DNA of 64,000 nucleotides, taken from assembly GCA_902727855.1 (NCBI GenBank), contig CACVAS010000128.1, positions 1 through 64,000 of the forward strand. The letters run 5' to 3'. Position 1 is the stretch's first letter, and each line of letters opens with the position of its first letter. Below, piece by piece: positions 4,527 through 39,665 of this stretch. Made by a program: the position numbers and the translations under genes. Under the pieces are notes generated by a model. It ran no database searches. It was given only the letters and a program-made list of their open reading frames with translations, and was not told where the DNA came from. This DNA comes from an uncultured Sulfurovum sp. Lineage in GTDB: Bacteria; Campylobacterota; Campylobacteria; Campylobacterales; Sulfurovaceae.

Positions 4527-5843
4527 TTACGCACCCTCCTCAAAATCCTCAGGCAACTCCAAAGCCTCTATATGCCCAAGTGCCCCAGCCCCTGCTATGC
4601 CTTGTAGTGAGCCATACATTTCAGTCGTGTTCTGTAACACTCCATCTATAAGCTTCTGGCGGCGTTTCCAGCTTGCCATGAGGGAGCGGCGTTCTTTGTC
4701 TAGTTCTGTTTGCATAGTCATGAAACCTTCCACTATGGAGTTCATTTGCATGCTAAACTCATTGCCCGTGAGGTAGTTGTAGAGTAAGGTCATTTTGTCG
4801 CCTCTGTTCTCTTCACGTTGTACAGTTTTGTGTACACGTATAAGGCTTTCACGTAGGAGTGACACTGAGCCTCTAAACTCAGTGAGGTCACATACCCAAA
4901 TGCCGTCTACAAAACCCATACGTTCCATGCCGCTAGGGTACACAGAAGTCACAAGTACGCCTATGTCTGCATTGACTTTAAGCATGTCTTGTTTGAGCTT
5001 TGTTACCCAGCCGTCACTCCATGCCTTTGTATTCTTAGACTCATAACAGATGACCCCACAGTTTTGTAGCTCACGTGTGTGGATGGTCTGTACACAGTCT
5101 GCCCCAAATGCACCTTTTTTCACTTCATCTACCGTGTCAAAAGGAAACTGAGAACTGAGCCACTCTTCTATGGCGAGTTCCAATGCTTCACCTTGGAGTT
5201 GCATAGAGCCTTGTTCTGACTTTCTTTTGGCATCATCTAGGCTACGCTTCATCTGCTCTATCTGCTCATCTTTAGCTTTGATCTTGAGTTCATTTGCTTC
5301 TAAAACTTGCTTAGTCAGAAGTTCTTTCTCTTCTTGTGCCTGTCTGGAGAGCTTCTCCTTCTCTACTCTAAGCTCGTCACTCAGTGCTCTTTGTGCTTCT
5401 ACTTTCGCAGCTGAGGCTACCTCTTCTTTCTCACGTTTGAGCTTTTCTATAAGAGCTTTAGAGGCGTTAAGTTCTTGGACTTGCTGAGACTTCTCTTTCA
5501 GTTCTTTTTGGAGCAGTGCCATAGACTCACTTTGCTCTTCTACAAGCTTACGCTTTAGCTCATCTGCTAGCTTAGCACGCTCTAGCTTGAGCTGTTCTTT
5601 AGTCGCTTTGCGTAAGTCTTCATCAAACTTCTCTTTCTCATCTTTAAAGGCTTCTTCTTTGGCTTTTAGTGCATCTAGGTGAGTCTTGTACTCTTGACGT
5701 GCTTCATCTCTCTCGTGAAGTAGCTTCTTCTGTTCAGCCATATGCTGTTGCTTGAACTTCTCTTCTATCTGATGGTAAAAGAGCTCATCTATATCTATCT
5801 CAGTAGCACAGTTGGGACATTTAATTGTAGTGGGTGTTGACAT
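4527..5843 (-). CDS. DUF2130 protein: zinc ribbon, coiled coil and nuclease-like domain
   Basis: A 438-residue DUF2130 protein. It opens with a half zinc-ribbon (KCPNCATEID), continues with about 220 residues of charged coiled coil, and ends in the DUF2130 domain, where GADCVQTIH followed by VICYESKNTKAW resembles the D...ExK core of PD-(D/E)XK nucleases. The family is widespread and uncharacterised; a DNA-associated nuclease or structural role is inferred. The longer frame (to 5912) is possible, but AGGAAG before the ATG at 5843 and the zinc-ribbon start favour the shorter protein. A fragment of a second copy lies 0.9 kb downstream. Confidence 0.85.
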   Translation of the reverse strand: MSTPTTIKCPNCATEIDIDELFYHQIEEKFKQQHMAEQKKLLHERDEARQEYKTHLDALKAKEEAFKDEKEKFDEDLRKATKEQLKLERAKLADELKRKLVEEQSESMALLQKELKEKSQQVQELNASKALIEKLKREKEEVASAAKVEAQRALSDELRVEKEKLSRQAQEEKELLTKQVLEANELKIKAKDEQIEQMKRSLDDAKRKSEQGSMQLQGEALELAIEEWLSSQFPFDTVDEVKKGAFGADCVQTIHTRELQNCGVICYESKNTKAWSDGWVTKLKQDMLKVNADIGVLVTSVYPSGMERMGFVDGIWVCDLTEFRGSVSLLRESLIRVHKTVQREENRGDKMTLLYNYLTGNEFSMQMNSIVEGFMTMQTELDKERRSLMASWKRRQKLIDGVLQNTTEMYGSLQGIAGAGALGHIEALELPEDFEEGA

Positions 5844-32101: not shown

Positions 32102-33664
32102 CTACACCCCAGGGGCTTTCCACATACTTTGTGTTAGTCCTCTGTCTACCAATGCCAACTGATGGGCATAGACTTCTTCCCATTGTGCTTTTATCTTTGC
32201 GTACTTTACAGTGTTTTCAACATTAGGGGTGTAGATTTTAGCCCACTCTACTAGAGTTTCAGATGCTTCTACCATGTTCTCGTAGATGCCTGCACCGACC
32301 CCTGCACTCATAGCCGCCCCTAGTGCAGTGGCTTCTGTGACTTTGGGTACTTTTATGGTGCATCCTGTGACATCTGAGAGTATCTGGCACCATAATGCCC
32401 CTTTGCTAGCTCCTCCTGCAAAGACAATCTCTTCTATGTTAAGTGCTGAAAATGCTTCTATTTTTTCTAGGTTTATTTTAGAGACGATACACGCATTTTC
32501 TTCTAAGCTTCTAAACATCGATGCTCTGTTACACACCTCTGGGTCAATGCTTAGGTTAATGAAAGAGGGTGATGCATGGTACCATTTTCCGTACTTCATA
32601 CTGTCTGAAAAAATGGGGAGTATGCCATGCGAGCCAAGAGGTACTAAGGCGGCTTTTTCTTCTAGTACAGCGTAAGTGTCTACACCTCTTTCTTTTGCTT
32701 CGAGCTTTTCCATGTCACAAAAGGCATCCCTAAACCAACGCATCACAAGCCCCGAGAAAAAGGTAATGCCCTCTGCTTGAGATAACCCTTCAACCACATG
32801 AGGGTTTACCCTTATGCCCATGTCTTTAGGTGGTATGACACTGGACTTCATGTTGACCACTTGTTGCCAAAAAGAGCCACCAAGTACTGCAACTTGTCCT
32901 TCCCGTACCACACCTAAACCAGCGGCTCCTAGTTGTACATCGCCACCACCCATGACAACTTTGGTATGTGTAGACAATCCTGTCTCATTTGAGGCTTTTT
33001 TTGTCACTTTACCCATGAGAGCACCTGTCTCAAACACAGATGGAAATATATCTGACTTTAGCCCTACTTTCTTGGCCATAGAGACATCCCAGTCTCTTCT
33101 CTTTAAAGAGAATATACCAGTAGTCCCACCATTGCTAGGGTCTGTAGCAATGACGCCAGAGAGCTTTGCTAGTATCCAGTCTCCTATCATAGAGATAGAC
33201 GCTACTTTCACATAGACCTCTGGCATATTATTTTTAAGCCAAAGTAGTCTTGGTAGAGCCCCTAGTGCAAAAGTTTGTCCAGAGGTTTCGTAAAACGCTT
33301 CTTCTATGCCCTCAAATGCTTCTTTTAAGTAACGTACCTCTTTATCGGCTCTGGCATCGACATTGGCAACACCCCAAAGTGCTTCGCCTTTTTCATCATA
33401 AAGCACAATCCCCTCACGCATACTTGTAGCTGACACTGCCACAATGTCTGAGCCTTGAAGTTGTGCTTTTTTAAGTGCCTCTTGTATGCACCAGAGCGTT
33501 AACTCCCAGTTGGTTTTGGTGTCAAAAGTCATAGAGTTGGCTACACCTTCAACTTCTAGGTGTACCCACTCTTTTTGAGCCACTGCTATTTGATTGCCTA
33601 GCGTGTCAAAAATGACTGCACGTACAGAACCAGTGCCTGCGTCTATTGCCATGAGGTATTGCAT
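32102..33664 (-). CDS. lsrK: Autoinducer-2 kinase-like FGGY sugar kinase
   Basis: A 520-residue FGGY kinase that matches E. coli LsrK over nearly its full length. Examples are MAIDAGTGSVRAVIFD (ATP site), ATSMREGIVLY, ANVDARA, ETSGQTFALGALPRLLWL, MGGGDVQLGAAGLGVV, GGSFWQQVVN, FFSGLVMRWFRDAFC, YHASPSFINLSID, VFAGGASKGALW and the C-terminal LTQSMWKAPG. LsrK phosphorylates the quorum signal AI-2 (DPD) in the cytoplasm. The similarity is much closer than to xylulo- or glycerol kinases. Upstream on the same strand are an aldolase and an LsrG-like gene; Lsr transporter, LsrR and LsrF genes are not in this window. The name rests on remembered sequence. Confidence 0.8.
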   Translation of the reverse strand: MQYLMAIDAGTGSVRAVIFDTLGNQIAVAQKEWVHLEVEGVANSMTFDTKTNWELTLWCIQEALKKAQLQGSDIVAVSATSMREGIVLYDEKGEALWGVANVDARADKEVRYLKEAFEGIEEAFYETSGQTFALGALPRLLWLKNNMPEVYVKVASISMIGDWILAKLSGVIATDPSNGGTTGIFSLKRRDWDVSMAKKVGLKSDIFPSVFETGALMGKVTKKASNETGLSTHTKVVMGGGDVQLGAAGLGVVREGQVAVLGGSFWQQVVNMKSSVIPPKDMGIRVNPHVVEGLSQAEGITFFSGLVMRWFRDAFCDMEKLEAKERGVDTYAVLEEKAALVPLGSHGILPIFSDSMKYGKWYHASPSFINLSIDPEVCNRASMFRSLEENACIVSKINLEKIEAFSALNIEEIVFAGGASKGALWCQILSDVTGCTIKVPKVTEATALGAAMSAGVGAGIYENMVEASETLVEWAKIYTPNVENTVKYAKIKAQWEEVYAHQLALVDRGLTQSMWKAPGV

Positions 33665-33728
33665 AGTGTATCTCCTACGTTTTGAGCCTTACGGCATATG
33701 TTTTGTTTGTATTCAATTTACCCTATGT

Positions 33729-33752
33729 GGTGCGTTAGCAAACGCACCCTAC
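33729..33752. repeat. REP-like palindrome between the aldolase and lsrK genes
   Basis: GGTGCGTT-AGCA-AACGCACC is a perfect 8-bp stem with a 4-base loop, followed by CTAC. Read on the minus strand this is GTAGGGTGCGTTTGC..., which I recall as a dispersed repeat core in many bacterial genomes. It directly abuts, and includes, the aldolase stop codon. It may also weaken transcription into lsrK. Confidence 0.55.
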
Positions 33753-34897
33753 TTTAACTTCGCCTGTTCTAGTTCCCAGTATTCCATTGCAAAACTATCT
33801 GCTATAGAAATACTCTGGTACCCACCAAGCTTGTCTGCACGAAGTACAGCCATCATCGTATGAGATACAACATCGTTGATGACATCTGCTTCTTTTTGTG
33901 TCTTGCCAAAAGTCACCACACCAAAGTCTTTTATCACTGCATATTTAGGGTTGCTATCTAACATGATTTCATCTGTTCTATACGCATTAAAATACGCTTC
34001 ATAGTCCACTTTGTAGTGCTTCAAAGCATCATCAATATCACTCTCTTCCAACACCAAAGGCACTCTCTTGGTTCTAATGATATGCTCAGGTGTTAAAACC
34101 CCTCGCGTTACTTTAGCACGTAAGTCATCTTGTGAAGCATAATGTAAAGCAAGTGGTGTTTGGTTGATATGCATAAACGTATCTATATTTAAGTCATCTA
34201 CATGAAACGTCGTAGGTTCGATGTCATCGAACATCAGCGCGGCATTTTTGTCTAAAAACGCTTCTGCCATAGTCACAGCATCTATCATTTTTGTGTACGA
34301 TTTTTGTGCATCATCATCAAAAGTAAATATGCCATGGTTATGCAAGATAATCCCCTCACAAGCATCCCAGTCAAAATCATCTTGAGTCATCTCATAAATC
34401 TTTTGAGCCAGTATAAACCCAGGCATCACATAAGGAATAATGAGAAAATCAGGGTAAAGGTTTGTTATGTGTTCCTGACCCTCTTTCGAATTAGAGATAG
34501 TCACCACTGCATCTGCATGGGTATGGTCTACCACTTTAAAAGGTATGAGTGCATGGAGTATGGCTTCGACAGAAGGGTTGGGTGCCGTTTTGTCTATCAT
34601 CGCTGCTTTTTGACCTTGTACCATGTCTGTGTCACTAAGTTTATTCATCTTAGCCATTTCAAGAAGTGTTGCCATCTTCACAGGTGCAAAGCCCTCAGCC
34701 TTTATGGACACCAAGTCCCATCCAGAGCCTTTAACATACAGTATCTCTTCACCCTCTACCATGCTTTTGACAGAAGTATTGCCCCCACCATGAAGGACAA
34801 GTTCATCACTTTGACCCAGTAGATTTGAGGTATAGACTCTCATATCTAGGTCTGTTTTACATTTTGACGCTACATTATCATCCCATAAATTTTTCAA
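33749..34897 (-). CDS. Class II aldolase/adducin family protein
   Basis: A 382-residue class II aldolase like the N-terminal half of the RhaD-type bifunctional rhamnulose-1-phosphate aldolase/dehydrogenases, without the C-terminal SDR domain. ELVLHGGGNTSVK is the phosphate-binding start. Zinc ligands are seen in VVDHTHADAVV and ILHNHGIFTF, and PNPSVEAILHALIPF is typical. Such enzymes split phosphorylated sugars to DHAP and an aldehyde. Standing between lsrK and an LsrG-like gene, it could cleave a phospho-AI-2 breakdown product in place of LsrF. That function is an inference; a deoxy-sugar phosphate is the alternative. Confidence 0.85.
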   Translation of the reverse strand: MKNLWDDNVASKCKTDLDMRVYTSNLLGQSDELVLHGGGNTSVKSMVEGEEILYVKGSGWDLVSIKAEGFAPVKMATLLEMAKMNKLSDTDMVQGQKAAMIDKTAPNPSVEAILHALIPFKVVDHTHADAVVTISNSKEGQEHITNLYPDFLIIPYVMPGFILAQKIYEMTQDDFDWDACEGIILHNHGIFTFDDDAQKSYTKMIDAVTMAEAFLDKNAALMFDDIEPTTFHVDDLNIDTFMHINQTPLALHYASQDDLRAKVTRGVLTPEHIIRTKRVPLVLEESDIDDALKHYKVDYEAYFNAYRTDEIMLDSNPKYAVIKDFGVVTFGKTQKEADVINDVVSHTMMAVLRADKLGGYQSISIADSFAMEYWELEQAKLK

Positions 34898-34900
34898 GAC

Positions 34901-35188
34901 TTAGCCTAGTACTTCTAGTTCATCACTATACTTGTGTTCACAGTAAGGCTCATAGCTTGACTTGTACGTCGCATAGTGTGAAGAAGCCTTATGTCCATCA
35001 AGTGCAGCCTCATCTCTCCAGCTCTCTACCGCCATAAACTTTCTAGGGTTATTTTCGTACTGAAAAATGTCATAAAAGATACACCCATCAGAAGCCTTAC
35101 TTGGTACTACCATGGCTGAAAGAAGCTCTTTCATCTTCACTTCACTACCCTCTTTTGCTATAAATGTTACGCGTTTTGTGATTGTCAT
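34901..35188 (-). CDS. ABM-fold protein, LsrG-like
   Basis: A 95-residue antibiotic-biosynthesis-monooxygenase (dimeric alpha/beta barrel) protein. KRVTFIAKEGSEVKMKELL, DGCIFYDIFQYENNPRKFMAVESWRDEAALDGHKASSHY follows the LsrG/ABM pattern (split over residues 5-70), including the His near HKASSHY. LsrG isomerises phospho-AI-2 during its degradation. Here the neighbouring LsrK-like kinase makes an LsrG-type role attractive, but ABM proteins are diverse. It heads the three-gene unit and is 3 bp from the aldolase. Confidence 0.78.
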   Translation of the reverse strand: MTITKRVTFIAKEGSEVKMKELLSAMVVPSKASDGCIFYDIFQYENNPRKFMAVESWRDEAALDGHKASSHYATYKSSYEPYCEHKYSDELEVLG

Positions 35189-35226
35189 TGTTTTATCCTA
35201 GAAATTTTAGATAAATTGTATCCTAA

Positions 35227-35376
35227 ATACTTTTCTTCCACAAGAAAAATCATGAAGATCTTAGATAGTATCCTCAAAAGTATGAATTTGGAAATTACGA
35301 ACTTTTAAGGACACTATCAAATGAATCCATAGAGAGAGAAAAAGAGCAACTTGCGATTGAGAGATATTTTGGTTAA
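35227..35376 (+). pseudogene. Decayed gene tail (unknown family)
   Basis: A plus-strand frame reads HKKNHEDLR, an in-frame TAG (35266-35268), then YPQKYEFGNYELLRTLS and EREKEQLAIERYFG to a stop. It has protein-like composition but no start codon and an internal stop. I cannot name the family. It marks the left margin of the accessory island. Confidence 0.4.
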
Positions 35377-35498
35377 CAATTCAAGATTAAATAAGAATTA
35401 ATTTAACTTCATCCTTTTATTCTAACTTGTTTTGGCTTTAGTGACCAAATGTTGTGAGAAATGACACCTACACTTAATTCTAGGAGAAGTTAGGTAGT

Positions 35499-35521
35499 GA
35501 CACAGAATTTCTTACAGTCCC
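35499..35521. mobile_element. Possible IS256-type terminal inverted repeat, solitary
   Basis: GACACAGAATTTCTTACAGT plus CCC resembles the ends of IS256/mutator-type elements (GGGACTGT...TTCTGTGTC when reversed). No transposase or partner end is visible in the window. If real, it is a leftover of an insertion that lay to its left. Comparison is from memory. Confidence 0.3.
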
Positions 35522-35528
35522 TTTTAAA

Positions 35529-36350
35529 TTAGCCGTTATCACTCATCTTATGGTCTATTTCAAACCTTAAAATAAAAAATATATCCTCTTCTCTATAACC
35601 AAAACATCTATATTTTTGAGTTACTCTAAACTTATAAATGGGTTGATTTCCAAACTCTTTTCCTTTGTATCTTTTATACTGTAATCCATCAGAATTAATA
35701 ATATTTTGCCAACTCATTTGTGAAACTTTTTTAAAAGAGTCTATAAACTCATCTCTCTGTTGAGATGTTTCTAATAGATTGAACCCATAATCATCTTCTA
35801 TCTTAGAAAAATTCAGATTGGTATTTTCAAATTTGAATTGACAATATTTGAGAGGTTCTATTTGTGAAGTAGACAAAAGATGACCTAAAAAGTGATGTTT
35901 ATCAATAAGGTTATAGATATTCATAGGTGTATTATTTTTTTGAATTTCTAAAATTATATTTAAAAAATCATTATGCTTAAAAGATAAGACTATCCTGTCT
36001 CTTTCAGAACTTTCTGCTAGAGATGTATTGCAGATATCATTTGAGTTATAATTGTAAGTATTCTGAGAACAGTTATGTTTTTGTATTTCATTCCAAAATG
36101 GTGGGTTTTGAGCTAATTTTGCTAAAAATTGTTTCATTTTTTTTGCTCTATCTGTTCTTAGTCTTAAAAAATCACTTAATTTATGGTTAGCTGTAACAGC
36201 TACATCAAAAAACATAAACTCTTTAGCAATAGAGAAGTTTAATTTATCTATCAATTTAATCATTTTCAAAATAGAATCAAAATTATCTAAAAACTCATTT
36301 TCATCTTTAAATTGCCCTGTTAAAGACAACTCATTAATTAAAATTTCCAA
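35529..36350 (-). CDS. Third gene of DUF262/ATPase cassette, unknown function
   Basis: A 273-residue protein starting at a TTG (MEILINELSLTGQF), one base after the ATPase stop. I recall similar orphan proteins with the same opening, a middle block like NPPFWNEIQKHNC ... NTSLAESSERDRIVLSF, and an end like RVTQKYRCFGYREEDIFFILRFEIDHK. The Cys/His positions (KHNC, ICN) could bind metal, and the last 50 residues look like a RelE/ParE-type strand-helix toxin fold. Function is unknown; as the third member of the cassette it may be the effector. The DNA is AT-richer than the flanks, suggesting transfer. Confidence 0.75.
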   Translation of the reverse strand: MEILINELSLTGQFKDENEFLDNFDSILKMIKLIDKLNFSIAKEFMFFDVAVTANHKLSDFLRLRTDRAKKMKQFLAKLAQNPPFWNEIQKHNCSQNTYNYNSNDICNTSLAESSERDRIVLSFKHNDFLNIILEIQKNNTPMNIYNLIDKHHFLGHLLSTSQIEPLKYCQFKFENTNLNFSKIEDDYGFNLLETSQQRDEFIDSFKKVSQMSWQNIINSDGLQYKRYKGKEFGNQPIYKFRVTQKYRCFGYREEDIFFILRFEIDHKMSDNG

Positions 36351-36351
36351 A

Positions 36352-37494
36352 TTATAGTCCTAAAAGTTCATCTAAATCATCATCAAATTGGTCAAAAAAC
36401 CCTTTTGGATAACTATCTATGCCACCATCTTTATCAATGTTTATTTTGTCTATTTTAGTCTCCAACTCATCTTTCTCTTTTCTAAAATAGTAAATACTAG
36501 ATTGTTCAGGAGTTAAAAGCCCTTTTTTAGTAGCAACTCTAATACCATTTAAAAAGTGATCACTATGCGTCTCTAATATAATTTGAACACCGTTAGCTGA
36601 AGCAATAGCACAAAGCTCTGCTATTTTTGATTGACCTGCTGGGTGTAGGTGGGATTCTGGGTTTTCTATAATAAGCAAATCCCCTTCTTTGGCTTTAAGT
36701 ATTGCCACAATAACAGGCAGTACATAAGTTAAACCAAACCCTACATTGAGTGGTGTGTAACTGTTGGTAGTGTTATCTCCATAAGTATACTTGTATGTCA
36801 AATTTACTTTTTGTAACTCATCATAAACTTTTGCAGATACTTCCACTCCTTCACTAATGTCACTTAACCACAAAGATACATTTTCTAATAATTGAGTTGT
36901 TAAACTATTTTTATGTATTAAAGCTTCAATATCTAAAGGCTTGTGTCTATTATTTGCTAAATAATGAGCAGTAAATTCTCCACTTAATCCAATATTGTTA
37001 TTTAATAAAAATTCATCACTCAACGAATAAAATATTTCAGGTTCAATTCTATTTGTTTGTATATATTGCAACTTTTCATCCATATTATAAAAAGCAAGAT
37101 TACTTACAATATCTACACTTGACTCAAACTGCAAAGTATTAGCATCAAACGAAATTTTAATAGGTGAATTGTCTTCATCTTCTAATTCTAAGTTTTTTTC
37201 AAACATTAAAGATATTTCTATTTTTTCATCATAGGTATCTTGATATAATATATCTTTTTTATTACCAAGCTTTACATATTTATCATTTATATTTAAAGGC
37301 TTTTTAGTTTCTTCATGAGAATACAGTTCTGAAAATCTTATTGTTTCAAAATTTTGCTTGAGTAGAAGTATCGCTTGAATAAATGATGATTTACCACTAC
37401 TATTAACACCTGTTATTAATGTTAAGTTACTTAATGAAATATCAATATCTTTTAAACTTTTAAAGTTTTTAATTACTACTCTATTTATTTTCAT
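36352..37494 (-). CDS. ABC/SMC-type AAA ATPase, DUF3696 family
   Basis: A 380-residue ATPase of the OLD/SMC-like 'AAA_15/DUF3696' group. The N-terminus IKNFKSLKDIDISLSNLTLI leads into Walker A GVNSSGKSS (29-37). The remaining head parts lie late: VGFGLTYVLPVIVAIL (signature region, 251-266), Walker B LLIIENPESHLHP (273-285) and the H-loop ETHSDHFLNGI (308-318). The end DGGIDSYPKGFFDQFDDDL is the DUF3696 tail. No TOPRIM domain, so it is not a GajA-like OLD nuclease. It overlaps the DUF262 gene by 14 bp. ATP-driven sensing of DNA or phage products is inferred. Confidence 0.88.
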   Translation of the reverse strand: MKINRVVIKNFKSLKDIDISLSNLTLITGVNSSGKSSFIQAILLLKQNFETIRFSELYSHEETKKPLNINDKYVKLGNKKDILYQDTYDEKIEISLMFEKNLELEDEDNSPIKISFDANTLQFESSVDIVSNLAFYNMDEKLQYIQTNRIEPEIFYSLSDEFLLNNNIGLSGEFTAHYLANNRHKPLDIEALIHKNSLTTQLLENVSLWLSDISEGVEVSAKVYDELQKVNLTYKYTYGDNTTNSYTPLNVGFGLTYVLPVIVAILKAKEGDLLIIENPESHLHPAGQSKIAELCAIASANGVQIILETHSDHFLNGIRVATKKGLLTPEQSSIYYFRKEKDELETKIDKINIDKDGGIDSYPKGFFDQFDDDLDELLGL

Positions 37495-38635
37495 ATATAA
37501 CCTCTTTTATTAATTTATTCATGATCTCAAATCTAGTCTCTATAGCACTTTTATCACTTGTACCTTCTGTAATTGCTTTTAAAAACTCCCCTTGTTCATC
37601 TTTCAATAATTTTTTAAACTTTATTAAAAATAATTCTTTTTTATTGAAAAACTTATCTCTATCCTTTATCTCACTAAAGCAAATAGTAATAACATCAAAT
37701 AGTGACCTATTAAGTGTTCTTGTCTTTTCATCATCTGCAATAGCTCTACTAAACCTATGATTTTCCCCAAGTATCTTCTCAGAAAATGTTAATGTCTCTA
37801 AAAGATTATTTTTTAATTTATCTATCTCTTCTTTATCTTCTATTAAATCTAATTTATCCATTGCTTTATCTAAAAAATCTTTCATTTTATTAGAATCAAA
37901 ATTTTCATACCCTGCTAATTTAAAGGCTACAAATCTTAATGCTAATTCCCTGTCTAGCATTCTTTTTGAACTTACTCCGACAATTTTTTTAAAAATATTA
38001 TTTTCTGTTACCTCCCTAAGAAAGCTTATACCTCCACCTTTTTGATTAAGTGCTTGTCTAATTTCTTGCGGATTTAATGATAGTCCACCTGTATTAATTC
38101 TATTGAATATAGAATACCTAACTTCCTTAGGTGTTTGCGCTTCAATTTGATAAGTAATAATCTGAGTTTCATCTATTATTCTTTTTAAGTTTCTATCTAA
38201 TTTATCATAATTATATCCATCTAAATGAGTTAAAAATTCTAAGTCTTTTAAAATTAATTTTTTATCAACAATAAACTTTTTAAATGTCGATAATCTTTGC
38301 AAGCCATCCACAACAAGCCATTTATCAGGTTCACTAACATCAAAATAAAGTACAGGTAATGGGAGCTTTAATAAAATTGATTCTATTAGTCGACTCATTT
38401 GTTTTCTGCCCCATAAATCTGAATTTCTTTGGAAGTCAGGGTTTAAATCAATTTCATCATGTTTCAGCCTATTAATAATACTAGAAAGTGCAATAGTAGC
38501 ATGAGTTATTCTAATATCTTTTGTTGAAAATGGATTCGTTATATTACCATCACTTTGAACCACATCATGATTTTTGTCGACTACTTTATCTTCTTCTATT
38601 GGTATGTTATGGATATAATCAGATACATTTTCCAT
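37481..38635 (-). CDS. DUF262 (GmrSD N-terminal/ParB-like) protein
   Basis: A 384-residue DUF262 protein. The domain, with LNPDFQRNSDLWGRKQMSRLIES (about 65-87) and the NTP-binding VVDGLQRLSTF (about 109-119), is the ParB/Srx-like fold found in the GmrS part of type IV restriction enzymes. The second half is helical (DUF1524 HNH is absent). Start ATG at 38635 has AGAGGGACA upstream; the ATG 3 bp earlier is also possible. It is the first gene of the cassette. An NTP-dependent switch in phage defence is inferred from the family. Confidence 0.85.
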   Translation of the reverse strand: MENVSDYIHNIPIEEDKVVDKNHDVVQSDGNITNPFSTKDIRITHATIALSSIINRLKHDEIDLNPDFQRNSDLWGRKQMSRLIESILLKLPLPVLYFDVSEPDKWLVVDGLQRLSTFKKFIVDKKLILKDLEFLTHLDGYNYDKLDRNLKRIIDETQIITYQIEAQTPKEVRYSIFNRINTGGLSLNPQEIRQALNQKGGGISFLREVTENNIFKKIVGVSSKRMLDRELALRFVAFKLAGYENFDSNKMKDFLDKAMDKLDLIEDKEEIDKLKNNLLETLTFSEKILGENHRFSRAIADDEKTRTLNRSLFDVITICFSEIKDRDKFFNKKELFLIKFKKLLKDEQGEFLKAITEGTSDKSAIETRFEIMNKLIKEVIYENK

Positions 38636-38686
38636 CATTGTCCCTCTTTATTACTTTACTTATTTTAATTAGAAATAATATCATTA

Positions 38687-38875
38687 TTATTTAATAATAC
38701 CCATACCTTTATCTATAAAATCTTCCCGATGCAAACTAAAATTCCCCTTACAAGTATTCGATCCGTCCAAATTGTCAAACGCTCTTTTTAAGTTTAAACT
38801 CTCATGTTCATGCAATAAATATCTATCCATCCAATCAAAGGTTATACCTAATCCAAGAACGTGAGAGGATAAAGA
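38687..38875 (-). pseudogene. Decayed gene tail upstream of the cassette
   Basis: A minus-strand frame of about 62 codons lies between two stops, without a start codon: it includes VLGLGITFDWMDRYLLHEH, FDNLDGSN and FSLHREDFIDKGMGIIK and ends in TAATAA. It looks like the C-terminus of a lost gene of a family I do not recognise. Together with the tail at 35227-35376, it shows that the island has been rearranged on both sides. Confidence 0.45.
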
Positions 38876-38916
38876 CGTTTACTTGCTCCATAGCTCTAGC
38901 TAAGGAGCTTACTATC

Positions 38917-38938
38917 AAAATATAAAGCTTTATATTTT
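38917..38938. repeat. 22-bp perfect palindrome
   Basis: AAAATATAAAG-CTTTATATTTT is a perfect 11+11 palindrome without a loop, in the 420-bp gap between the cassette and the MazF gene. It could be an operator or a cruciform-type terminator. The rest of that gap holds only the gene remnant and one hairpin. Confidence 0.4.
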
Positions 38939-39016
38939 TAATGTTTGTAGAGATATTATTTCAATGTATTATTTTTAGTGCATGAGTTTTGTTTTGTTGT
39001 TTGTATTCTGATAGAG

Positions 39017-39040
39017 GTTTAACAGCTGGAACTGTTAAAC
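39017..39040. terminator. Hairpin downstream of the MazF gene
   Basis: GTTTAACAG-CTGGAA-CTGTTAAAC forms a 9-bp stem and 6-base loop 16 bp past the mazF stop. No U-tract follows on the minus strand, so it may be a weak or factor-assisted terminator. Confidence 0.4.
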
Positions 39041-39055
39041 GAGTAAAAGGTGCTT

Positions 39056-39397
39056 TTACTGTATATTCAAAACAACCCTCATCGCTTCAACCAATTTAAG
39101 GTAAATCTCATCGTCTATGACACCTATCTTTTTAATCATCCTAGTATTGGAGACTGAACGTATATTGAGTGCATCTGCTGTTGATGTTTTGGCTAAGCCA
39201 TTTTGTGTTGTAGGTTCTATGGGGACTAGCCAGCTTTTGTTGTTGTGTAGTTCTTTATGACCTATGAGTGGGACTATGACCTTTAAAGGTAAAATGCCCA
39301 CGTCGTCATTACTAACAATGATGCAAGGTCTTGCCTTTTTAGTCTCTGCACCTTTCGTAGGGTTTAGATCTACGAGGTAGATATCTTTAGTATTCAT
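39056..39397 (-). CDS. MazF/PemK-type endoribonuclease toxin
   Basis: A 113-residue PemK/MazF-family mRNA interferase. KDIYLVDLNPTKGAETKKARPCIIVSND gives the family start (split at about residues 4-30), with VIVPLIGH and the loop KTSTADALNIRSVSNTRM typical. I use the ATG at 39397 (GAAGAGATAC upstream) rather than the TTG at 39412. It overlaps the antitoxin gene by 11 bp. It cuts mRNA at short sites; specificity is unknown. Its position next to the DUF262 cassette fits a defence island. Confidence 0.88.
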   Translation of the reverse strand: MNTKDIYLVDLNPTKGAETKKARPCIIVSNDDVGILPLKVIVPLIGHKELHNNKSWLVPIEPTTQNGLAKTSTADALNIRSVSNTRMIKKIGVIDDEIYLKLVEAMRVVLNIQ

Positions 39398-39665
39398 GTA
39401 TCTCTTCTTCAAACTCTATGAGTTCTTGTATCTCAGGATTTTCATTATATTCATCTAACATCATCTTTGCTTCTTCACGAAGTTGTTCTCTTTTTTGTTT
39501 TGCTACATACTCAGCTATAGCAGTCTGGTAAATGGTGTTCATAGAGACATGTAGTGTTTCTTTAAGTTGCATCACTTCTTGTTTGAGTATTTGTGGTAAA
39601 ACCACAGTAACCTTTTCTACAGACGACTTTTCTACAAGTGACTTTTTCTGGGTATTTAATACCAT
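39387..39665 (-). CDS. Antitoxin partner of the MazF-type toxin
   Basis: A 92-residue protein with a ribbon-helix-helix-like part (VEKVTVVLPQILKQEVMQLKETLHVSMNTIYQTAIAEYV, about 16-54) and an acidic C-terminal tail (EYNENPEIQELIEFEEEIHEY, about 72-92) that would wrap the toxin. Gene order (antitoxin first, short overlap) is typical of MazEF modules. AGGAGTATT supports the ATG. Confidence 0.82.
   Translation of the reverse strand: MVLNTQKKSLVEKSSVEKVTVVLPQILKQEVMQLKETLHVSMNTIYQTAIAEYVAKQKREQLREEAKMMLDEYNENPEIQELIEFEEEIHEY

Follow-up and report, generated by a model that had tools for sequence, protein, structure and literature searches.

A Menshen-type (NsnABC) operon of an uncultured Sulfurovum sp., with an NsnC C-terminus related by sequence to Panacea-paired phage and plasmid proteins

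INTRODUCTION

Menshen, which reportedly came from a search for anti-phage systems and whose domain types are said to have been surveyed by Li et al. in 2025, is the described system that most resembles the three genes considered here. These genes, nsnA, nsnB, and nsnC, lie on the minus strand of contig CACVAS010000128.1 (GenBank assembly GCA_902727855.1) of an uncultured Sulfurovum sp. from the order Campylobacterales, and the first 64,000 nucleotides of this contig (the window) were analyzed. We take the NsnABC profile set of PADLOC to represent the Menshen system.

According to the available portion of PMC10952713, disabling the DUF262 gene abolished Menshen protection. The same architecture was described again in 2025 in mBio (PMC11980606) as ptuXYZ, in a paper in which the word Menshen occurs 0 times. 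The available portion of that paper reports 17 operons encoding a DUF262 protein, a P-loop ATPase, and a two-domain third protein; it calls PtuX a putative nuclease and models PtuZ as a PIN-like N-terminal half without catalytic residues followed by a BECR-fold domain. The likeness between ptuXYZ and NsnABC is one of description, and the BECR fold was not reproduced by sequence for the NsnC of the window. DUF262 domains with the QR, DGxQR, and FxxxN motifs, named after the accessible part of PMC12137116, are common to NsnA and the GmrSD, BrxU, and SspE proteins, whereas the window operon is without a DUF1524 nuclease and has an ATPase and a third protein. In the excerpts available, PMC10952713 and PMC12137116 present DUF262 domains as probable controllers of an effector through nucleoside triphosphate (NTP) binding and hydrolysis. 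As a find, the operon adds little, since Menshen has been described and its architecture described again as ptuXYZ; the additional result is a link between the end of NsnC and phage and plasmid proteins that are paired with Panacea antitoxins.

RESULTS AND DISCUSSION

Identity and layout of the operon

The three genes are as follows.

37481..38638, minus strand: nsnA, DUF262 / ParB-Srx-type NTPase protein, 385 aa, ATG start (PADLOC NsnA, Pfam GmrSD_N)
36352..37494, minus strand: nsnB, AAA15/AAA21 ATPase with a DUF3696 tail, 380 aa, ATG start (PADLOC NsnB, Pfam)
35529..36350, minus strand: nsnC, two-part protein, 273 aa, TTG start (PADLOC NsnC PDLC03891)

A preliminary description, made from the letters of the DNA, had presented this trio as a candidate defense system built around a DUF262 protein and a DUF3696 ATPase, and had proposed comparing the proteins with PADLOC by hidden Markov models. 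This comparison matched NsnA, NsnB, and NsnC at 378.7, 365.9, and 277.8 bits, respectively, each near full length, and the three homologues are adjacent on one strand in the order A-B-C. Components, order, and spacing are thus those of Menshen, and the window copy carries the MAG6450-like type of NsnC. Judged by profiles and gene order, the trio is a Menshen (NsnABC) defense operon, an already described kind of system and not a new one. The Pfam and PADLOC profiles agree on a defense-type operon, as had been claimed; what the preliminary description missed was that Menshen, an architecture also published as ptuXYZ, had already been described.

In Pfam, NsnA matched DUF262 (GmrSD_N) at 83.6 bits, above the cut-off, and NsnB matched AAA_15, AAA_21, and DUF3696 at 96.8, 79.7, and 55.2 bits, the last also above its cut-off, while NsnC had no Pfam family at E 1 or better. 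The DUF262 motifs of NsnA and the ATPase motifs of NsnB are intact. Q70-R71, D111-G112-x-Q114-R115, and F178-x3-N182 of NsnA are kept at ≥90% in 62 aligned rows, and so are G29..G34-K35-S36 (Walker A), E277-N278-P279-E280, and H310-S311-D312-H313 of NsnB in 56 aligned rows.

All three reading frames are intact and full length. The coordinates bear out the 14-bp overlap of nsnA and nsnB (37481-37494) and the 1-bp gap between nsnB and nsnC (36351) noted before, and the boundary at 38635 given earlier corresponds to a second ATG of nsnA. The TTG start proposed for nsnC holds as well, as an AGGA motif precedes it and a TTG is also found in the same-genus NsnC homologue. The GC contents of nsnA, nsnB, and nsnC were 27.0%, 28.0%, and 25.8%, against 35.4% for the whole window, in agreement with the earlier remark that the trio is AT-richer than its flanks. 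Third-position GC was 17-20% in the trio against 37-39% in the operon on one flank; on the other flank it was 28-40% in a MazF/antitoxin pair and aspS, and low again (19%) in adk beyond aspS. In its own genome, each trio protein had one strong match, the window copy itself.

Comparison with other defense systems

Several related systems were tried and rejected, and the earlier exclusion of Gabija, Septu, and GmrSD stood, as no TOPRIM, helicase, HNH, or DUF1524 family was found. For Gabija, neither TOPRIM nor a helicase family was detected, and NsnB reached 366 bits with the NsnB model against ≤56 with GajA models among the matches listed. Septu would call for an HNH family, which none of the three proteins has, and type IV restriction of the GmrSD kind for the DUF1524 nuclease domain. 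With the AriA model of PARIS, NsnB scored 100.8 bits against 365.9 with its own model, and no AriB match was listed for the other two proteins. The PD-T4-2_A model matched NsnA at 105.2 bits, indicating a related DUF262 protein, but the partner in PD-T4-2 and similar pairs is a HEPN protein, in place of which the window has NsnB and NsnC; no match to the HEPN-like PD-T4-2_B was found for NsnC (P0003), nor for P0002 among the best 25 of 116 matches listed.

Two-gene cassettes of a DUF262 gene followed by a HEPN gene were seen in the same order of bacteria at L036:4330-6223, L037:4411-6088, L038:4050-6283, L039:1940-3784, and L040:4315-6022, and also in a Klebsiella phage (L188:3941-5844). The HEPN partners matched RiboL-PSP-HEPN at 31-65 bits in the five scanned, the partner in L038 was recognized as HEPN by eye, and that in L040 resembles PD-T4-2_B (25.9 bits).

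Co-occurrence and distribution of the three genes

To survey the trio, an NsnC alignment was scanned against genome contigs, which gave 67 loci that belong, by their titles, to Campylobacterota, other Proteobacteria, Bacillota, Bacteroidota, and others. NsnB lay directly upstream of NsnC in 66/66 loci whose contig reached far enough, and NsnA directly upstream of NsnB in 63/63 testable loci. The automatic count was 65 (B-C) and 62 (A-B-C) of 67; L093, in which NsnB ends at 4906 and the NsnC match starts at 4908, was added, L098 (contig starting 149 bases before NsnC) was set aside, and so, for NsnA, were L047, L076, and L100, whose contigs start inside NsnB. NsnA is short in L042 (157 aa) and L107 (125 aa). 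The preliminary description had made its reading depend on homologues of the third gene co-occurring with the other two, and they do, because the trio is kept in every testable locus. As the loci were found through NELSL- and RCFGY-type patterns, the conservation of these residues is partly a product of the way the loci were selected. The NsnA and NsnB profiles, and those of the DNLH and HGKIK classes described below, were built from members of the same fetched locus set.

The distribution is patchy, with the trio in 3 of 60 genomes, its own included, and in differing neighborhoods: fabH, plsX, and a dnaX-like gene (named by eye) in the same-genus genome G019, against aspS and a kinase operon in the window. 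In G019 (L026:8922-9392), nsnA is cut to 156 aa beside fabH (by eye), and this Menshen copy is probably disabled. In a Blautia copy (L086:4917-6660), nsnB is divided between two frames and nsnC lacks its middle (profile positions 3-116, then 178-280). NsnB relatives covering at least 80% of the query occur in 28 plasmid records, 7 conjugative and 6 mobilizable by prediction, and the names of adjoining plasmid features suggest DUF262 neighbors for part of them. NsnA relatives were seen in 20 phage records, 2 of which cover at least 80% of the query.

A two-part NsnC with an exchangeable C-terminus

The two parts of NsnC in the window are as follows.

35832..36350, minus strand: N-terminal half of NsnC, ~residues 1-173, common to the NsnC types compared (matched alone in homologues with another C-terminus)
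35532..35804, minus strand: C-terminal toxin-like domain of NsnC, MAG6450-like, ~residues 183-273 (NF046006, PHROG 8366, separate homologues)

The PADLOC model PDLC03891 matches residues 2-273, whereas five other NsnC models stop at residues 141-209. A homologue from the same order shares 46% identity over the N-terminal half against 23% over the rest, and ends in a Gp49 domain (53.9 bits, cut-off 23.9) that replaces the MAG6450-like end in two homologues. We take Gp49 to be of the HigB type. By sequence comparison, NsnC is composed of a shared N-terminal half of ~175 residues and an exchangeable C-terminal half of four types, the 67 loci being divided into 37 MAG6450-like, 16 'DNLH', 10 'HGKIK', and 2 Gp49 ends, with 2 truncated and unclassed. 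Further PADLOC NsnC types occur in the same order (L028 and L031). A colicin E3-like reading of the 'DNLH' ends, made by eye, was rejected, as it found no Pfam or credible Protein Data Bank (PDB) support and no plasmid match.

Mapped on the best NsnB tree (54 rows), the four C-terminal types need 6 changes, with a minimum of 3 and a mean of 16.9 for shuffled labels; the tree is a quick one, it has three long branches, and its starred branches alone force fewer than 6 changes. Left out of it were L042, L068, L076, L098, and L106 (duplicates or fragments), L093 and L107 (no class), L028-L035 (unclassed), and 9 without a single NsnB stretch >200 aa at the cut-off. The clearest exchange is that of Treponema L103 (MAG6450-like), which is sister to Prevotellaceae L084 (DNLH) with an SH-aLRT value of 100.

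Relatives of the MAG6450-like end

The C-terminal type of the window NsnC also exists as a separate protein of ~140 residues in phages and plasmids. The window NsnC end scored 38.0 bits with NF046006, just under the cut-off of 40, and this model was matched by 83/83 scanned homologues at E 0.01 or better. PHROG 8366, a phage family of 140 positions, matches NsnC residues 178-270. Separate homologues turned up in 16 records, 4 from plasmids and 12 from phages, several of them identical. Six loci were inspected.

L187:2590-3276, L189:1014-1887, L190:1016-1893, L191:960-1821, L192:1020-1887, L193:874-1830: Panacea gene, then stand-alone MAG6450-like gene

In a Pseudomonas phage, the 137-aa protein P0169 scored 20.3 bits with NF046006, below the cut-off, and 29.1 bits with a profile of NsnC ends; the highest of 5000 shuffles reached 6.9. 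Its gene starts 9 bp behind that of an 87-aa protein in which the Panacea match (35.7 bits, cut-off 25.7) is confined to the end of the domain. The further loci were in Salmonella phage Emek, Escherichia phage E212, and plasmids of Legionella, E. coli, and Pontibacter, the homologues of Emek and the E. coli plasmid being near-identical. In 5/5 of these, a full Panacea (SocA-like) antitoxin gene of 72-88 bits directly precedes or overlaps the separate homologue. Because a Panacea gene, in one case a piece of the domain, is thus directly upstream in 6/6 inspected loci, the MAG6450-like protein is read as a toxin.

The NsnC-end profile matched the six separate homologues at 15.5-40.4 bits, and no other of the 272 reading frames of these loci had a match at E 10 or better. 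A profile-profile comparison of the six with NsnC ends gave P 4e-16, whereas the best of 15 decoys reached 0.095. W214, R242, G251, and F258 (window numbering) are identical in 18/18 rows (12 NsnC ends and 6 separate proteins). At the level of this alignment, the C-terminal domain of NsnC is related to the Panacea-paired phage and plasmid protein. The likeness to Panacea (PanA/PanT) pairs is one of domains: in NsnC the domain is fused to the N-terminal half, and no Panacea gene adjoins the window copy. According to the available portion of PMC8832971, Panacea proteins neutralize many unrelated toxins, and most validated ones are translation inhibitors or membrane disruptors.

No link between the NsnC end and Panacea was found in the literature searched, the scope of which did not include the Panacea supplements and Li et al. 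2025. The MAG6450-like toxin type was not found in the main texts, as available, of PMC8832971 or PMC10440598, their supplements lying outside this scope; the word Menshen was not found in the accessible part of PMC10440598, and MAG6450 appeared, in the portions available, in a table row only. Among 200 genomes of the phylum, NF046006 matched no protein but that of the window, under the cut-off, and no Gp49 was found in its own genome. Whole NsnC (P0003) had no match in phage and plasmid records at 1e-5, and 48 pattern stretches in viral contigs included none confirmed as a relative. In a set of 5.8 billion proteins, a stand-alone C-terminal domain gave 4 matches of 71-135 aa among 5 candidates, which are perhaps fragments.

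Proposed mechanism and alternatives

Profile membership, gene order, intact nucleotide-binding motifs, the two-part NsnC, and its Panacea-paired relatives come from comparison, and on them we infer the effector, its docking, the sensor, the signal, the release, and the target as follows. In our reading, to which we give a probability of roughly two in three, the Menshen operon would protect by means of NsnA and NsnB, which on sensing infection would set free or activate the NsnC toxin and so arrest the cell. NsnC would be the effector, docked through its N-terminal half on NsnA/NsnB, which would serve in lieu of an antitoxin and hold the C-terminal toxin inactive. NsnA, a DUF262 NTPase that lacks DUF1524, would recognize a sign of infection, which may be phage DNA or a modification of it, as in GmrSD, BrxU, and SspE, and the NsnB ATPase would pass the signal on. 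The freed toxin would stop the infected cell before phage release, most likely through RNA cleavage that blocks protein synthesis. The variable, toxin-related part is the NsnC end, and the simplest reading is a fixed sensor pair with an exchangeable toxin; the earlier suggestion that the third protein could be the effector is judged likely.

Several points weigh against this reading. The available part of PMC10952713 assigns an OLD-type TOPRIM domain to one of the Menshen components, whereas none was found in the window trio: NsnB had no TOPRIM family at E 1 or better in the Pfam scan, and the PADLOC NsnB model (345 positions), matched end to end, does not include one. No defense island is shown at the locus by the identity of its flanks. 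The C-terminal types seem mostly inherited along the NsnB tree, and exchange would be only occasional because 6 changes are needed against a shuffled mean of 16.9. The Panacea pairing was read from 6 of the 16 records that hold a separate homologue. Sequence searches gave no credible PDB relative of NsnC, and hhalign of the NsnC C-terminus against Gp49 gave P 0.015 (0.012 with the separate homologues added), with 0.012 for the best of 16 decoys. The RelE-like end proposed earlier for the third protein is plausible as a RelE/BECR fold, but is unsupported beyond decoys, 1 of 16 having done as well. Finally, the DUF262 part of NsnA was matched at 30.1 bits by the PADLOC 'REase_II' model.

This last match, weak as it is, would suit an arrangement in which NsnA itself is a DNA-targeting nuclease, with NsnB as regulator and NsnC as sensor or adaptor, in a modification-dependent restriction like that of GmrSD. 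The intact DUF262 motifs of NsnA, the naming of PtuX as a putative nuclease in the available part of PMC11980606, and the suggestion in that of PMC10952713 that the NTPase controls an associated nuclease point the same way. We nevertheless consider this unlikely: no DUF1524, HNH, or TOPRIM domain was found in NsnA or NsnB, the part exchanged among homologues is the toxin-related NsnC C-terminus, and DUF262 proteins elsewhere in the order pair with HEPN proteins instead. A toxin-type domain with Panacea-paired relatives, low GC beside a lone insertion-sequence end, a patchy presence (3/60 genomes, its own included), and NsnB relatives on 28 plasmid records could also be expected if the three genes worked as a toxin-antitoxin or addiction module, securing their own persistence or that of a mobile element in the genome and acting against phages only secondarily. 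Two large NTPases would be costly for such a module, and Menshen reportedly came from a search for anti-phage systems, so that we regard it as quite improbable. It is more improbable still that the operon is a decaying remnant no longer protecting its host; the insertion-sequence end at the nsnC boundary and the same-genus copy (G019, L026) with nsnA cut to 156 aa are in keeping with decay, but all three window genes are full length with conserved motifs.

If NsnC is the toxin released by NsnA and NsnB, Menshen might be more generally a toxin-antitoxin machine, in which NsnA and NsnB form a conserved sensor doubling as antitoxin, the exchangeable toxins, fused to NsnC as a dock, are drawn from the pool neutralized by antitoxins of the Panacea and HigA types, and the MAG6450-like toxin is used by phages, in Panacea pairs, and by their hosts, in Menshen effectors. 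We hold this wider view tentatively, as a possibility rather than an expectation. The useful outcome is an account of the effector with its exchangeable NsnC tail, which points to a domain and to residues of interest. It also leads to the prediction that phage-borne Panacea antitoxins might inhibit Menshen and would then act as a counter-defense.

Flanks and neighboring genes

Two features adjoin the trio.

35498..35521, minus strand: insertion-sequence terminal inverted repeat, standing alone 7 bp downstream of the nsnC stop codon (agreement with an element elsewhere in the genome)
39056..39665, minus strand: MazF/PemK toxin and CcdA-like antitoxin pair with a consensus promoter, outside the trio (Pfam)

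Positions 35498-35521 match, at 23/24 bases, the end of a transposase-like element that lies elsewhere in the genome and looks complete (L109:1501-2840; transposase named by eye), and a pattern made from both repeat ends occurs once in the window and never in 100 shuffles, indicating that the insertion-sequence-like end noticed earlier is real. The insertion sequence is presumably of the IS256 type. Its lone end fits acquisition or rearrangement next to the operon. Although aspS and the flanking operon occur in relatives, no relative's stretch, in a comparison reaching ~1.5 kb beyond each gene, matched both flanks as an empty site, and the MazF/antitoxin pair was unmatched there.

The toxin of the pair matched PemK/MazF at 68.6 bits, and its promoter is a perfect TTGACA-17-TATAAT with TG before it. 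The antitoxin is weakly CcdA-like (18.9 bits, below the cut-off of 22.4), so the toxin half of the 'MazEF' pair reported before stands and the name is approximate. As for the gene remnants said to border the trio, no nameable open reading frame was found in 38639-39055 or 35189-35528, the sole similarity search being that of the 35190-35535 DNA against its own genome. The open stretch 38639-39055 upstream of nsnA, which contains LGLGITFDWMDRYLLHEHES, is possibly a gene remnant.

Beyond these features, one side holds an operon (32102-35188) that encodes an FGGY kinase, a class II aldolase, and an ABM-domain protein, and the other side holds aspS and adk. We take the kinase/aldolase/ABM operon to be AI-2/Lsr-like. 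In this assembly, which carries 9% contamination, a second partial copy of the 32102-35188 operon (L155) is present elsewhere with ~73% DNA identity.

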